DNA of 26,078 bases from a virus: the IMG/VR virus record IMGVR_UViG_3300044825_000304, positions 1 to 26,078 of that record; one strand, 5' to 3'. Of this stretch, positions 12,238 to 17,492 are shown piece by piece. Made by a program: the position numbers and the translations under genes. How positions within the stretch are numbered: the first letter of the stretch is position 1; the number at the start of each line of letters is the position of its first letter. The notes beneath the pieces are model-generated. The model was given only the letters and a program-made list of their open reading frames with translations, did not search any database and was not told the DNA's origin.

Positions 12238-12708
12238 CTACTCCGGCTTAATTGGCCAAGTGACGCTGCGCGGGAAGCCAGCCTGAGCCGTGACATCGCG
12301 CAGTGCTTTGCGATACGACGCCCACGCCGCCTTATCAACGGGTGCGTCTGCAATTTGGGTCCAGTCACAGCCAGCCAGCAAAGTGTCGCGCTCTGATCGC
12401 ACTTCCGCCGCCTTTTCCGCCAGCCATGCTTCGGTCTCCTCTGGAGTGGCTGGCATTAGGGAAAATGTAGAAAACCACTGCTGGCCGTCCCATTTTGGCT
12501 GGTCAGGTATACATATTTGCGTGGCCGGGTCGTACTGCGGCTGTTCTGGGTACAATATTGCGAACACCCCAAACTGCTTCAGAATTTCGTCCGTCAAATG
12601 CGCCGGGAACGACACATTAGGATTATCTGCGCGCAGCTTGTCTGGGTGATACGGGTAGTCAAGAATGACCCCATCACGCGCCCGGACATAGGTATATTCC
12701 AGTGCCAT
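12238..12708 (-). CDS. Tail assembly chaperone-like protein, copy 2, 156 aa
   Basis: The C-terminal half has the phage tail assembly chaperone pattern (Phage_tail_APC type): RSERDTLLAGCDWTQIADAP followed by WASYRKALRDVTAQAGFPRS and VTWP. Proteins of this type are encoded next to tail fibres and help them fold or attach. The N-terminus (YPYHPDKLRADNPNVSFPAH) and the length match copy 1 at 14998-15468, also 156 aa, so the two are paralogues. The start ATG has AAAGGA about 8 bases upstream; alternative starts further upstream lack one. The gene directly follows glycine-rich protein copy 2, its probable client. Confidence 0.8.
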   Translation of the reverse strand: MALEYTYVRARDGVILDYPYHPDKLRADNPNVSFPAHLTDEILKQFGVFAILYPEQPQYDPATQICIPDQPKWDGQQWFSTFSLMPATPEETEAWLAEKAAEVRSERDTLLAGCDWTQIADAPVDKAAWASYRKALRDVTAQAGFPRSVTWPIKPE

Positions 12709-12728
12709 CTTTTGCATCCTTTCTGCCA

Positions 12729-13847
12729 TTACCACCATGCCCTAGCAGCCGAATTACCTCCGACTGCCCCAAAATACCCACCACCTTTGCCACCACCGCC
12801 ACCACCACCCCCTTGACCACCTCGGCCACTTACAGTGCCGTTAGTCGCAAAACCGTCTCCTGATCCGGCCTGCCCGCTAGTGCTACCAGAGGTTCCGGGG
12901 TCTTTGGTGCCTGTTCCGCCACCACCGCCGCCAGACGCCCCTCCAGCGCCTGCGCCACCAGAGCCAGCACTACCGTTGTTGGCGACTGTTGACGCCGCAC
13001 CAGCAGCGCCAGCACCACCAACACCAGAAAATCCGCCAGCCCCACCGCCGCCGCCGCCAACAAGCTGAAGCGTTGTGGAGCTTGATGTCGTTCCGTTTCC
13101 ACCCGCCCCGCCGCTAAACGCCGATCCACCCGACGCAGTGCCTCCAGCGCCACCAGTCCCCGGAGTGGTTCCTGTAGCTGCCGTGCCGTTTCCGCCCCTG
13201 TTGGCAGAAAGCACATCTGTCCCGTTAAGCGCCAAAGACGCTCGTCCAGTGCTGGCATTAGTTGTAATATTAACTTGCCGCAGGCCAGTTAAAGCAATAG
13301 ACGCAGAATAAGCGTGTCCACCTCCGCCACCGCCACCGCCACCGCGATATCGGCCATCTGTCCCCGTCGCGCCGCTGTTGCCGTCGCCACCACGCCCAAC
13401 TACAGCGCCTCTGATTGACGTATACGGGCCGGGAATGACCGCGTTCACGCTGAACGAGGTGTCGAAAGAATTCACAAAGATCGTGCGAATAGTGGTCGTG
13501 CTGTAAGAGTACCCAACGCCATTGACAGTAACCGTGGCGGTGGTTGTGGCGCTAACTCCGATACTCCCAGCAGGTGTTACCTGCCGAACAGATAGAACGT
13601 CTCCGGGGACTATAGTGCCGGGAGAGTTTGTCCACGCCCCGCTATTTACGCGGTACTCAGGGCTGTTTCCTCCGCCAACCGTCACGGGGATGGCACCAGA
13701 GCCGCTCGAATAGGTCAAAGACGTAGGAGACTCTGTTATAATTCCGCCTGCAAACTGTGCAGTCGTGCTAAAACTGCCAGTTATGACTACTGGAGTAGGA
13801 GGCGCGGGTGGCGCTGATATAGATGCGGCGAGCAGTTTAGCCAGCAT
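12729..13847 (-). CDS. Glycine-rich tail fibre tip/adhesin candidate, copy 2, 372 aa
   Basis: The protein begins [20 protein letters not shown]. Its first half is beta-rich with Ig-like strand patterns (for example SPTSLTYSSGSGAIPVTVGG and VRQVTPAGSIGVSATTTATV). From about residue 155 it is dominated by glycine, with GGGGGGGGG runs and many GG-Ala/Thr/Ser units such as GGAGGTASGGSAFSGGAGG. Such composition matches the polyglycine-II type adhesins that cap some phage long tail fibres (as in S16 gp38). It overlaps the fibre gene stop by one base and precedes a chaperone. The start chosen is the ATG in the overlap, giving an N-terminus parallel to copy 1. A receptor-binding role is inferred. Confidence 0.75.
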   Translation of the reverse strand: MLAKLLAASISAPPAPPTPVVITGSFSTTAQFAGGIITESPTSLTYSSGSGAIPVTVGGGNSPEYRVNSGAWTNSPGTIVPGDVLSVRQVTPAGSIGVSATTTATVTVNGVGYSYSTTTIRTIFVNSFDTSFSVNAVIPGPYTSIRGAVVGRGGDGNSGATGTDGRYRGGGGGGGGGHAYSASIALTGLRQVNITTNASTGRASLALNGTDVLSANRGGNGTAATGTTPGTGGAGGTASGGSAFSGGAGGNGTTSSSTTLQLVGGGGGGAGGFSGVGGAGAAGAASTVANNGSAGSGGAGAGGASGGGGGGTGTKDPGTSGSTSGQAGSGDGFATNGTVSGRGGQGGGGGGGGKGGGYFGAVGGNSAARAWW

Positions 13848-14509
13848 TATGCGTCTCCCACGCGCGCGCCGTACAATGTAGAACTGACCTTCCAGAGGAT
13901 GACGACCGTAAATCCACTTGAATTTAGCGTTGGGGCCACGCCTCCGTTGGTCTTCCACGTCACAGACGGCCAGCTAATTGTAAAGCCCGTACCGTCGTCA
14001 ATCATCAACGTCATCGCCTCACCAGCGACCAGACTATCCGTAGGCGTGGATGCCCCGGTCAAAGTCCAAGTTTGGATTGTTCCGTTGTTTGGGTCCAAGG
14101 CGGGCGTTGTGCTGCTTAGGGCATATACCGTCTCAATGATGGCGTTGGAGAACTTAACGTCTCCTACGGAGTTGGCAGTAACGACCTTCGACGCCTGCGA
14201 AGTGCCGAGCGTTTCGACGTCGTTGTAGTTCAACTCGGCGGCTGTCGCGGTTACGCCATCAAGAATGTTTAGCTCGGAGGTGGTCGCCGTAACGCCGTCA
14301 AGAATATTAATTTCTGCCGCAGTCGCGGTGACAGCGGTGCCACCGATTTTCCACTCACCAGACGTCAGGTTTGGCTTGATCGCCGTCGTGCCATCAAGCA
14401 GGTCATCGATCTTGTCCATGTCCTCGTTCAGCTTGCCGCCCCAAGTGTCCTCGGACGCGCCGACTTCTGGCTTAATGAGGCCGTAAGTGGTTGTCGTTGT
14501 GTCAGCCAT
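13847..14509 (-). CDS. Tail fibre protein, copy 2, 220 aa
   Basis: The N-terminus [20 protein letters not shown] is the typical beginning of many phage fibre proteins. A repeated stalk follows ([20 protein letters not shown], then [13 protein letters not shown], about 65-105). The C-terminal domain (138-220, [13 protein letters not shown] to YGARVGDA) is homologous to that of copy 1. The start ATG has AAGGGG about 7 bases upstream; the longer alternative frame start does not. The conserved C-terminal domain may dock the glycine-rich protein encoded next. Confidence 0.82.
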
Positions 14510-14520
14510 ATCGCCGCCCC

Positions 14521-14988
14521 TTATGCCGCTTGCGTCCAAGTTTCAGCCGCGTTGTCGGCGGGAACCCAGATCTCACCAGTATCAGATTGCGGAACCCAAG
14601 TCTCCGCCGTGTTGTCGTCTGGCTGCCATTTCTTGACCGCCGCCACGCTCAATATACACGAAATTTGAGAAAGCGCACTAGCAGCACGAAGGCGATTGCT
14701 GCCCACTGACAAAGAAAGTGCGCTCGCGGATGTCGCGGATGCGTTGACGATGAAGACCGCCGACGCGGAGGCCGCAGATGTCGCAGAAATTGAGACCGAC
14801 GCGCTGGACACTCTTACCGAAGCGCACGCTGACGAGGACGAGACCGCAATCGACGCCGAAGCCTGCGTGACCCTTTGGGCCGAAAGCGATGCAGACGCCG
14901 CTACTGTTACGGTCGCAGACGCCTCACGGGCGTAGAAAACGCCATCATCAGCAATGGCAAGGCTTGCGACGGGGGATAGTCCAAGCAT
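14521..14988 (-). CDS. Ser/Ala/Val alternating-repeat virion protein, 155 aa
   Basis: After [20 protein letters not shown], residues 20-105 alternate small (Ser/Ala) and branched residues with period two, as in [20 protein letters not shown] and [20 protein letters not shown], suggesting long beta strands or a fibrous solenoid. The C-terminus holds three copies of a roughly 11-residue unit, [20 protein letters not shown] and ETWTQAA. AAGG lies 7 bases before the ATG, and it fits tightly between chaperone copy 1 and fibre copy 2. A fibre or tail decoration role is inferred. An acidic plus-strand ORF covers the same DNA but has no supporting context. Confidence 0.6.
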
Positions 14989-14997
14989 GGCTGCACC

Positions 14998-15468
14998 TTA
15001 CTCTGGTTGCGACTTTTCACCCGCCGAAGGCTGAGATGGCCAGTCAACGTTGCTCGGAAACCCGGCCTGCCCGGTTATGTCGCGCAATGCCTGACGATAT
15101 GCGACCCAATCGGCTGGGACTGGAGACCCAGTTTCGACACACTTTACCACGATCCAGTCCGTTTGGCGCAAAAAGTCATCACGCTTCCTGCGGATGTTTT
15201 CTGACACAATCGACGCAGGCTTTTCTATGATGTCAAAACCGAGAGACCAGACGCCTCCAGCCTCCTGCGGCATGTCATGGTAGACAACTTCGTGCGTCTC
15301 ATCCTCGACGGGCGGTGTGGGCAGAATATCAACAGGAAAAACGCCATACTCAGCGAGCAGGGCGTCTGGCGCTGGGTCAGGGAAGCTGACCTGCGGATGC
15401 TCTAGCATCAAGTCGTTGAGGCTGTACGGGTAAGCCGAGGCAACACCGCTTTTGACTTTCACGAACAT
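14998..15468 (-). CDS. Tail assembly chaperone-like protein, copy 1, 156 aa
   Basis: The protein has the same plan as the downstream copy: N-terminal YPYSLNDLMLEHPQVSFPDP, LLAEYGVFPV, then RRKRDDFLRQTDWIVVKCVE, WVAYRQALRDITGQAGFPSN and VDWP in the C-terminal half, the block typical of phage tail assembly chaperones. GGAGG 5 bases before the ATG at 15468 makes this start clear. It follows glycine-rich protein copy 1, which together with the fibre would be its client. Confidence 0.82.
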   Translation of the reverse strand: MFVKVKSGVASAYPYSLNDLMLEHPQVSFPDPAPDALLAEYGVFPVDILPTPPVEDETHEVVYHDMPQEAGGVWSLGFDIIEKPASIVSENIRRKRDDFLRQTDWIVVKCVETGSPVPADWVAYRQALRDITGQAGFPSNVDWPSQPSAGEKSQPE

Positions 15469-15482
15469 GTTCGCCTCCCCTG

Positions 15483-16283
15483 TTAGGCTGTCCACTGATA
15501 ATACGAAATCCCGCCAGCACCGCCGCCACCGCCAGCAGTGGTGTCTGTCGCGGGTGATCCGGCCCCGCCGCCACCCGCACCGATCAACCACGCCTTGAGC
15601 GTCAGCGTCCCGGCTGGGATGCTATACGATGTGCCTGAAGTCAAAACGACTGCGGCATTGCTGTTTGTCTGGATGACGAGGCAGCCGCCTCCGCCAGCTC
15701 CGCCAGCGCGGATTGCCGACAAACCAGCGGCTCCGCCACCCCCACCGCCCAAGCTTCCGGCCCCGCCAGCGCCGCCGTACCATCCAGCGCCGCCACCACC
15801 TGCGCCAACCCCAGTTCCGGGTGACCCGTTCTTTTCGTTATTTGGTGTCGCGCCAGAGTCGGCACCAGCGCCGCCTGTTCCAAGCGCAAATCCAGAGCCA
15901 GACAGGGCTGTGCTTAATCCCTGAAAATTAATTGCGCTCGCGCCTGCTTGGCCATTGTCGTTGGCCCACGCACCATTGTTGGAGACGTTGATACCGCCAC
16001 CACCGCCGCCGCCATTGTCGCCACTGGCCCCGCCACCCGTGCCGCCCGTCGCGTTTGAGCTTCCGCCAGATGCGGTCCCGCCAGCAGCGGTGGCCCCAGT
16101 ATTGTACAGCCCACCGCTCCCGCCGTTGGCCGTCAACGAGATGCCCTTGTACGACAGGGTGCTGGCTCCGCCGCTGGATCCGCTGGCAGCGCCAGATCCG
16201 GCTGCCCCGCCAGTTCCTAGGCTGTATGTGACCGAGCCACTAAGCGACGGCGCAGATGCGCCCATGAGCCTTGCAGAAAGCAT
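15483..16283 (-). CDS. Glycine-rich tail fibre tip/adhesin candidate, copy 1, 266 aa
   Basis: The protein starts [20 protein letters not shown] and then contains long glycine-rich stretches (GGGGGGGINVSNNGAW, GGGGAGWYGGAGGAGSLGGG) interrupted by short segments such as INFQGLSTALSGSGF and CLVIQTNSNAAVV. It ends in a conserved-looking glycine-rich tail before ISYYQWTA. Size and composition suggest a compact polyglycine-type domain on a fibre tip. The start ATG overlaps the fibre stop by one base, exactly as in copy 2. It is shorter than copy 2 because it lacks the beta-rich N-terminal half. Confidence 0.75.
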   Translation of the reverse strand: MLSARLMGASAPSLSGSVTYSLGTGGAAGSGAASGSSGGASTLSYKGISLTANGGSGGLYNTGATAAGGTASGGSSNATGGTGGGASGDNGGGGGGGINVSNNGAWANDNGQAGASAINFQGLSTALSGSGFALGTGGAGADSGATPNNEKNGSPGTGVGAGGGGAGWYGGAGGAGSLGGGGGGAAGLSAIRAGGAGGGGCLVIQTNSNAAVVLTSGTSYSIPAGTLTLKAWLIGAGGGGAGSPATDTTAGGGGGAGGISYYQWTA

Positions 16284-17101
16284 TATGCGTCCCCAACGCG
16301 AGCGCCGTAGATCGTCGTGCCGACCTTCCACAAAACGATGACCGTAAACCCGCTCGTCGCCAGCGTCGGGGCCACACCCCCGTTCGTTTCCCAGACCGGG
16401 GCGAGCGTGGTCCATGTGATGGTGTTGGCCGTGCCATCATCAATCATCAGCGTGATGGATTGCCCGGCTGCCCAGTTCACCTGCCCCGGTGTGCGGCTCG
16501 CGCCAAGGGTCCACGTCTGGATTGAGCCGTTGTTCGGGTCTAGGTTGACGGTCGTGCCGTCTGTGATGGCAAAAACCTCTTCCGTATAGCCGTCGTTCAG
16601 CACGGCCTTTTCTAGCGTCTTGTTCGTCAGTGTCTGCGCGTCGGTCGTCCCGACGACAGCGCCGCTTGGGATGGCCTTTTGCGCCGCAGACCCATCGATG
16701 TTGCCCGAAGAGTTGGACAGCACGAAGCTGGACGCCGCAATGCCGCTCAGGGTGTTGCTGTCCGCGCTGATCGTTTTGTTGGTCAGAGCCTGCGCCTCGT
16801 CAGGTTGCACAATGTCGGCGGCCAGAGCGGAAACGTACACGACGGCGGAGCCAGACAGGTTTAGCAAAGACCCCGTGCTGGATTGCACCAGAGACCGCGA
16901 GAGCGTCGTGCCAGACGACGTGTAGGTGCCCGTCCCGATTTCCCAAGCCGCGCCATCCTCAATGACGTAGCTGACCACGTTTGAGTTGGAGACGCCCGCA
17001 TTGGCGAACGTCTGGAAGCCAGCAAGCGCAGAGCCGAGCGTAATGGTGCCAGACCCCGTAGTGGCGGTTGTCATCTTCGCGCGGTTTACCAGCTTAGGCA
17101 T
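16283..17101 (-). CDS. Tail fibre protein, copy 1, 272 aa
   Basis: The N-terminal part (about 1-90) is beta-rich and contains [20 protein letters not shown] and [20 protein letters not shown], a pattern common in phage tail proteins. Two LTNKT units ([12 protein letters not shown] near 105 and [12 protein letters not shown] near 158) are typical fibre stalk repeats. The C-terminal domain 187-272 ([13 protein letters not shown] to YGARVGDA) matches copy 2. The ATG is preceded by GAGGTGAG. It lies 10 bases after the Gp80-like gene and overlaps the glycine-rich gene by one base. Confidence 0.82.
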
Positions 17102-17111
17102 TCATCTCACC

Positions 17112-17492
17112 TCAATCGAGCGTTACGTCCAGATCACCCGTCGGGATACGCAGAACGTCGCCCGTGTCGATGGTCTTGGACGCGGTCAGCGCAGCATAGG
17201 CAATCATGTTGCCGGATGTCTGGGCGTCGAAGATGGCCGCGTGGGTAATGGTGCCCCAGCTTCCAGATGCAGCCGCAAATTCGACAGCGGCGCTGTTCGA
17301 TGCGTTGTTGCCGCTCACCGTGAATGTGACAGAGGCGCGCCCGTAGTTGTTGCCGCTGACCTCGGTGCCGCCGCCAGTCTCGCCGGGGGCAGCCGTGAAC
17401 AGGCCGATCCACCATGCCGTCGGGCGGGTCGGAGATCCTGTGGTAAGCGTCCACTGGAGGACGCGCGTTTCAAAGTCGTTGGTAAAGCTCAT
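17112..17492 (-). CDS. Gp80-like phage tail fibre protein, 126 aa
   Basis: The start is the ATG overlapping the adaptor gene stop (ATGA), giving MSFTNDFETRVLQWTLTTGS. The sequence WWIGLFTAAPGETGGGTEVS, NNYGRASVTFTVSG, WGTITHAAIFDAQTSGNMIA and a C-terminal RIPTGDLDVTLD is the recognisable pattern of the small phage fibre family often labelled Gp80 or phage tail fibre protein. It is beta-rich and probably trimeric. It heads the fibre region, directly before cassette copy 1, so it could link fibres to the tail. Confidence 0.75.
   Translation of the reverse strand: MSFTNDFETRVLQWTLTTGSPTRPTAWWIGLFTAAPGETGGGTEVSGNNYGRASVTFTVSGNNASNSAAVEFAAASGSWGTITHAAIFDAQTSGNMIAYAALTASKTIDTGDVLRIPTGDLDVTLD

Follow-up and report, generated by a model that had tools for sequence, protein, structure and literature searches.

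The window analysed here, a stretch of 26,078 nucleotides (nt) covering positions 1 to 26,078 of the IMG/VR virus record IMGVR_UViG_3300044825_000304, carries on its minus strand two cassettes that each consist of a fibre gene, a gene for a glycine-rich protein and a gene for a predicted chaperone. We call the conserved C-terminal domain of the fibre the dock, the protein encoded next to it the tip, and the N-terminal peptide of the tip the plug. The genes follow one another in the order gp80-like, fibre 1, tip 1, chaperone 1, an open reading frame (ORF) of 155 amino acids (aa), fibre 2, tip 2 and chaperone 2, with the following coordinates.

16283..17101, minus strand: fibre 1, 272 aa, N-terminal stem plus C-terminal dock (ORF; N-terminal DNA common to the sister phage L117)
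16286..16585, minus strand: dock 1, conserved fibre C-terminal domain, 100 aa, ending YGARVGDA (alignments; AlphaFold2; BFVD matches to phage-fibre C-termini)
15483..16283, minus strand: tip 1, 266 aa, glycine-rich (order of the domain parts hints at circular permutation of Gly_rich_2)
16242..16283, minus strand: plug 1, N-terminal peptide of tip 1 (fits the consensus of 18 unrelated tip clusters and the strict motif)
14998..15468, minus strand: chaperone 1, 156 aa, predicted Phage_tail_APC (PF16778, E 2e-19; AlphaFold2 model)
13847..14509, minus strand: fibre 2, 220 aa from the ATG at 14509, stem of TWGGKLN type plus dock (ORF; alignment to fibre 1)
13850..14137, minus strand: dock 2, about 60% identical to dock 1 and in a different supported clade
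12729..13847, minus strand: tip 2, 372 aa, N-terminal extension followed by a glycine-rich part (ORF; comparison with tip 1)
13806..13847, minus strand: plug 2, a form of the motif one residue shorter, with K at position 4 (fails the strict regular expression)
12975..13019, minus strand: 45-nt in-frame stretch of tip 2 that is missing from the otherwise identical contig L083/L185 (contig comparison)
12238..12708, minus strand: chaperone 2, 156 aa, predicted Phage_tail_APC, upstream starts possible (PF16778, E 1.4e-22)
17112..17492, minus strand: gp80-like upstream neighbour, homologue of fibre I gp80 of podophage GP4 (PF23140, E 1e-39; PDB 8jou_a, E 3e-8)
14521..14988, minus strand: 155-aa ORF between the cassettes, no family assigned (kept at the same place in L117/L112, and also present near other dock fibres)

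Similarity between the two cassettes

An earlier note on this DNA had described three consecutive genes repeated in the same order and with the same overlaps. The order is confirmed here, but the cassettes do not succeed each other immediately, as the 155-aa ORF (14988-14521) intervenes. The overlaps agree at the fibre/tip junction, where, as that note had seen, both glycine-rich genes start inside the fibre stop: the sequence is TAATG in both cassettes and the tip ATG begins on the last base of the stop (position 16283 is common to fibre 1 and tip 1, position 13847 to fibre 2 and tip 2). They differ at the tip/chaperone junction, with a 14-nt gap in cassette 1 and, depending on the start chosen, an overlap or a 20-nt gap in cassette 2. 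Both chaperones have the 156 aa attributed to them when read from the ATGs at 15468 and 12708, and the alternative upstream start of chaperone 2 gives 166 aa from 12738.

Pairwise alignment, which had been named as a check, disclosed significant similarity outside low-complexity sequence for the chaperones (34% identity over 154 aa, E 8e-28) and for the fibre C-termini (45% over 162 aa, E 8e-37, and about 60% over the last 100 aa or so), and chance is excluded for both. The two fibres do finish in YGARVGDA, as reported, and their C-termini are 73% identical as DNA over 128 nt; their N-termini and stems are unrelated. Between tips 1 and 2 the only similarity was of the low-complexity kind (best E 0.022), and because of this we regard the glycine-rich proteins as non-homologous rather than as the most diverged pair, which is how they had been presented. 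With 69.6 and 79.7 bits against PF16778 (Pfam cut-off 26.6), chaperones 1 and 2 belong to the Phage_tail_APC family, and the upstream gene scored 136.3 bits against PF23140, the podophage GP4 fibre I gp80 family (curated cut-off 27). Neither fibre gave a credible Pfam or PHROG match. The 155-aa ORF (14521-14988), for which Pfam and PHROG searches returned no match, ends in repeated ETW(V)P motifs and has relatives in many dock-bearing loci.

Distribution and descent of the dock, and natural tip exchanges

The dock is present on unrelated fibre stems in more than 100 viral contigs, a T4-like cyanophage, a roseophage and prophages. These other docks are 55-94% identical to dock 1 and end fibres with open frames of 157 to 1916 aa, and in almost all of the dock contigs the dock is followed by an ORF that starts on or beside its stop and then by a chaperone. 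The same gene order was found in the T4-like cyanophage S-CREM2, where the tip (MLQSQGLRAGSGG) is followed by a chaperone-like protein, in roseophage CRP-1, whose tip has a diverged plug, in podovirus MW202701, and in the Acidovorax Leaf78 prophage and other prophages. Since the nearest relative of the window's neck gene is that of Octadecabacter virus DB2 (53%), a host in the Rhodobacterales is a reasonable guess.

The AlphaFold2 model of dock 1 is a compact beta domain (predicted local distance difference test, pLDDT, 94.4; predicted template modelling score, pTM, 0.86). It matched no solved PDB structure at E 0.001, and a dock profile found no credible match among PDB sequences. In BFVD the model matched many predicted phage proteins, including fibres (146 at E 0.001 or better), so that the dock probably represents a single lineage within a fibre-end fold of wide occurrence. 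A literature search that covered few subscription papers and did not include the original paper on the GP4 structure found no description of the dock or the plug. The fold resembles that of many phage-fibre C-termini, one of them annotated as a tail fibre C-terminal domain, and this would fit a dock that is itself the receptor-binding knob, with the downstream proteins as independent virion or accessory proteins. Receptor-binding parts, however, are normally the variable ones. Here the dock is conserved across hosts and unrelated stems and it is the next protein that varies, and we consider a receptor-binding dock quite improbable.

The earlier note had spoken of tandem copies, and the shared gene order and the homology of docks and chaperones would indeed suit a local duplication after which the glycine-rich genes diverged fast. 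The phylogeny does not bear this out. A tree built from 95 docks placed the two of the window in different supported clades, and 0% of the bootstrap trees joined them; dock 2 is more distant from dock 1 than are 140 of 183 other docks. The dock of L119/L117 has 94% identity to dock 1 and that of L094 has 88% to dock 2; the closest relative of chaperone 1 is in L119 (78%). The stems are unrelated, the tips are alike in low complexity only, and fibre 2 of the sister phage has no dock. What a local duplication would look like is seen in L171, whose two docks are sisters in the tree, unlike those of the window. On these grounds tandem duplication is rejected, or at best very improbable, and the two cassettes appear to have been assembled separately, because their docks belong to separate supported clades and their stems and tips are unrelated. 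Locus L171 carries two successive dock fibres of different stem type, with a single tip gene after the second. Two docks per record were found in 2 of 38 records, a lower bound given that viral contigs are mostly fragments.

Comparison of closely related loci revealed exchanges of whole tips with breakpoints at the borders of the tip gene. L047 and L050 share 806 nt at 99.5% identity, through the dock and seven plug codons, after which they encode unrelated tips (211 and 822 aa), and identity returns at 86% from 6 nt before the chaperone. Similarly, the window and the sister phage L117/L112 have the gp80 region, the N-terminus of fibre 1 and dock 1 in common. The dock 1 DNA of the window and L117 is 89% identical up to the tip ATG, where the identity stops; in L117 a tip that we read as LamG-like, going by its sequence only, replaces the glycine-rich tip 1, and 94% identity resumes inside the chaperone. 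Fibre 2 is cut to 84 aa in L117/L112, without a dock. Near this truncated fibre, L117 encodes a 303-aa glycine-rich protein with a non-plug N-terminus (YDGSRASGVWSLDEALEYKKAGNWP), the two lying within positions 8961-10950 of L117. When all 671 pairs whose docks are at least 85% identical were compared, 369 had unrelated tips, and 65 of 80 pairs with similar tips were on stems without detectable similarity.

Searches of the viral contigs for relatives of tips 1 and 2 found only the near-identical contig 3300047557_000013 (L083/L185). It equals the window over 9.9 kb, the sole difference being a 45-bp in-frame deletion in tip 2. Slippage between repeats at the end presumed to bind the receptor could account for it, although it could also be an assembly error.

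The plug motif and the chaperone

To characterize what occupies the slot after the dock, viral contigs were scanned without bias for dock-end DNA alone, and the same pattern was then run over all collected loci. Among the matches listed, 125 of 141 nonredundant junctions had the next ATG overlapping the dock stop, and the 122 ORFs of usable length formed 20 clusters, among which BLAST found no similarity beyond residue 18 (single-linkage clustering by BLAST, which may miss remote homology between tips). Eighteen of these clusters begin with a plug-like peptide, approximately ML-x-x-K-L-L-x-A, plug-likeness being judged by eye; the remaining two consist of inserts in the junction, namely a homing endonuclease and an ORF resembling one. 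Residues 2, 5, 6 and 7 of the plug carry 2-3 bits of information and residue 9 carries about 1.5, against a background of roughly 0.5-1. In its strict form the motif occurs in 130 of 186 tips versus 17 of 2338 other ATG ORFs. Plug 1 matches this form; plug 2, one residue shorter, does not. Most tips are not glycine-rich, and their folds include WD40-like, DUF7483, DUF285, Gly_rich_2 and unnamed ones.

The stop/start overlap is very common (tip start at -1 in 156 of 186), and the motif and the overlap might thus serve co-translational coupling or assembly, acting on the nascent chain or mRNA, with the mature tip held by other surfaces or merely following the fibre gene. Such a role would also suit a plug whose helicity is unsupported: scored as an amphipathic helix, it gave 0.280, versus 0.275 with its positions permuted, which lends that reading no support. 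The motif is nevertheless retained at the protein level where the tip starts 0-9 nt past the dock stop, and hence does not arise as a consequence of the overlap; it also stays when another ORF separates dock and tip. In L054 (8579-9082) a GIY-YIG endonuclease with NUMOD3 lies exactly between the dock stop and the tip start, and in L163 (minus strand, 716-1345), L166 and L172 the same place is taken by an ORF of 209-210 aa. The latter had no match in a Pfam search, and from its likeness to similar sequences we take it for a putative homing-type endonuclease. In L054 and L163 a plug-bearing tip comes directly after the insert and overlaps its end. A purely co-translational role is in our opinion unlikely, if somewhat less so than a receptor-binding dock.

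For tip 1 (15483-16283), the usual start of the Gly_rich_2 domain was found at the C-terminus. Its score against Gly_rich_2 (PF21722, cut-off 24.3) was 19.7 bits in natural order and 26.8 bits when rotated; shuffles and the reversed sequence gave no match, and a half-swapped control gave 23.6 bits. That this control scored nearly as well makes a circularly permuted Gly_rich_2 suggestive only. Tip 2 did not match PF21722.

Covariation was computed on whole chaperones from 118 systems with 300 permutations. Chaperone similarity tracked that of the tip with the dock fixed (partial r 0.40, reached in 0 of 300 permutations), and did not follow the dock with the tip fixed (0.035, 54 of 300). The AlphaFold2 model of chaperone 1 (pLDDT 94.8) has a beta N-terminal part and a helical C-terminal part. 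It had no significant match among PDB folds (E 0.001), Pam3 gp25 included, and 2kz6 was the only match of the chaperone profile among PDB sequences.

A probable socket-and-plug adhesin module

We believe that each cassette probably is a socket-and-plug adhesin module, and that the window phage has two of them on unrelated stems and thus probably two different glycine-rich-type adhesins. The fibre would end in the conserved dock, probably as a trimer, and the tip gene would be translationally coupled to it by the one-base stop/start overlap. The first 12 or so residues of the tip, the plug, would hold it on the dock, leaving the rest free to take any fold and to contact the host, while the Phage_tail_APC chaperone encoded by the third gene would help the tip to fold or to mount. 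Because the modules have dock and plug in common, recombination at the two borders of the tip gene, with the dock and with the chaperone, could replace the whole tip and leave the fibre undisturbed. The proposal of two adhesins in one phage, made in the earlier note from the glycine-rich composition and the example of S16 gp38, is well supported by the comparison of loci, and both fibres may be carried by one virion. The reason is another: most tips in this slot are not glycine-rich, so that composition is not the telling evidence, and its place is taken by gene position and the shared N-terminal peptide.

Several observations weigh against this interpretation. Plug 2 is one residue short, L171 has two docks and one tip only, and the lack of a helical signal in the plug counts in the same direction. 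The chaperones of L047 and L050 are 86% identical as DNA despite their different tips, so different tips can be served by chaperones of one lineage, and the chaperone is not strictly tip-specific. The association of chaperone and tip could also be due in part to co-transfer, though the dock is equally near the tip.

The socket-and-plug cassette has precedents in S16 gp37/gp38, in the adhesin swapping of T-even phages and in the conserved-peptide receptor-binding proteins of Klebsiella phages. T-even adhesins are reportedly swapped by recombination between conserved motifs, as attributed to Tetart and colleagues in 1998. Exchange at conserved borders is common to both cases; here, however, it involves non-homologous folds, another gene family, and podo-, myo- and other tailed phages. 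In the long tail fibre of S16, the gp37 trimer is capped by the gp38 adhesin (PMC6851490), a separate glycine-rich protein that caps the fibre C-terminus through an attachment part bearing a variable receptor-binding part. Gene position and the shared N-terminal peptide in the window are compatible with such capping. In contrast, S16 gp38 uses a helical attachment domain with conserved tryptophans instead of a plug of about 12 residues, and in the present system tips of many folds use the plug and a separate chaperone gene is kept. Neither tip 1 nor tip 2 had a PDB match at E 0.1, and their sequences do not place them in the S16 gp38 family.

Klebsiella phages and K1E, K1-5 and SP6 have second receptor-binding proteins with a conserved N-terminal peptide, of 7 residues upward, such as MALxxLV in KP34 viruses (PMC6872550). 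There too a short peptide is taken as the attachment and the remainder varies, but it sits on an anchor or T4gp10-like domain near the tail, not at the distal fibre end with a chaperone gene next to it. The Pam3 fibre gp24 has a glycine-rich distal receptor-binding domain, served by the chaperone gp25 with a beta N-terminal and a helical C-terminal domain (PMC9608196), the same layout as modelled here; its glycine-rich part is fused to the fibre, with no separate tip or plug. For Alteromonas phages A5 and V22, the abstract describes a fibre-chaperone host-recognition module common to morphologically distinct phages (PMC10579305). Sharing across morphologies is thus a likeness, but there fibre and chaperone are shared as a module, and the abstract mentions no exchangeable plug-bearing tip.

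More tentatively, and with more doubt than confidence, these data might reflect a morphology-independent code in which one dock and a peptide of about 12 residues allow unrelated phages of several bacterial classes to exchange tips of any fold, promoted by endonuclease genes homing into the junction; that the inserted ORFs drive tip exchange is a conjecture. If the socket-and-plug interpretation itself is right, a change of host recognition would be explained by a single recombination step, and the system would be a clean one in which to study how a chaperone follows its client. The dock would then be a sequence flag for the receptor-binding proteins of uncultured phages, the next ORF being the tip whatever its fold, and many hypothetical proteins (WD40-like, DUF7483, DUF285, LamG-like and glycine-rich) could be annotated as likely adhesins.

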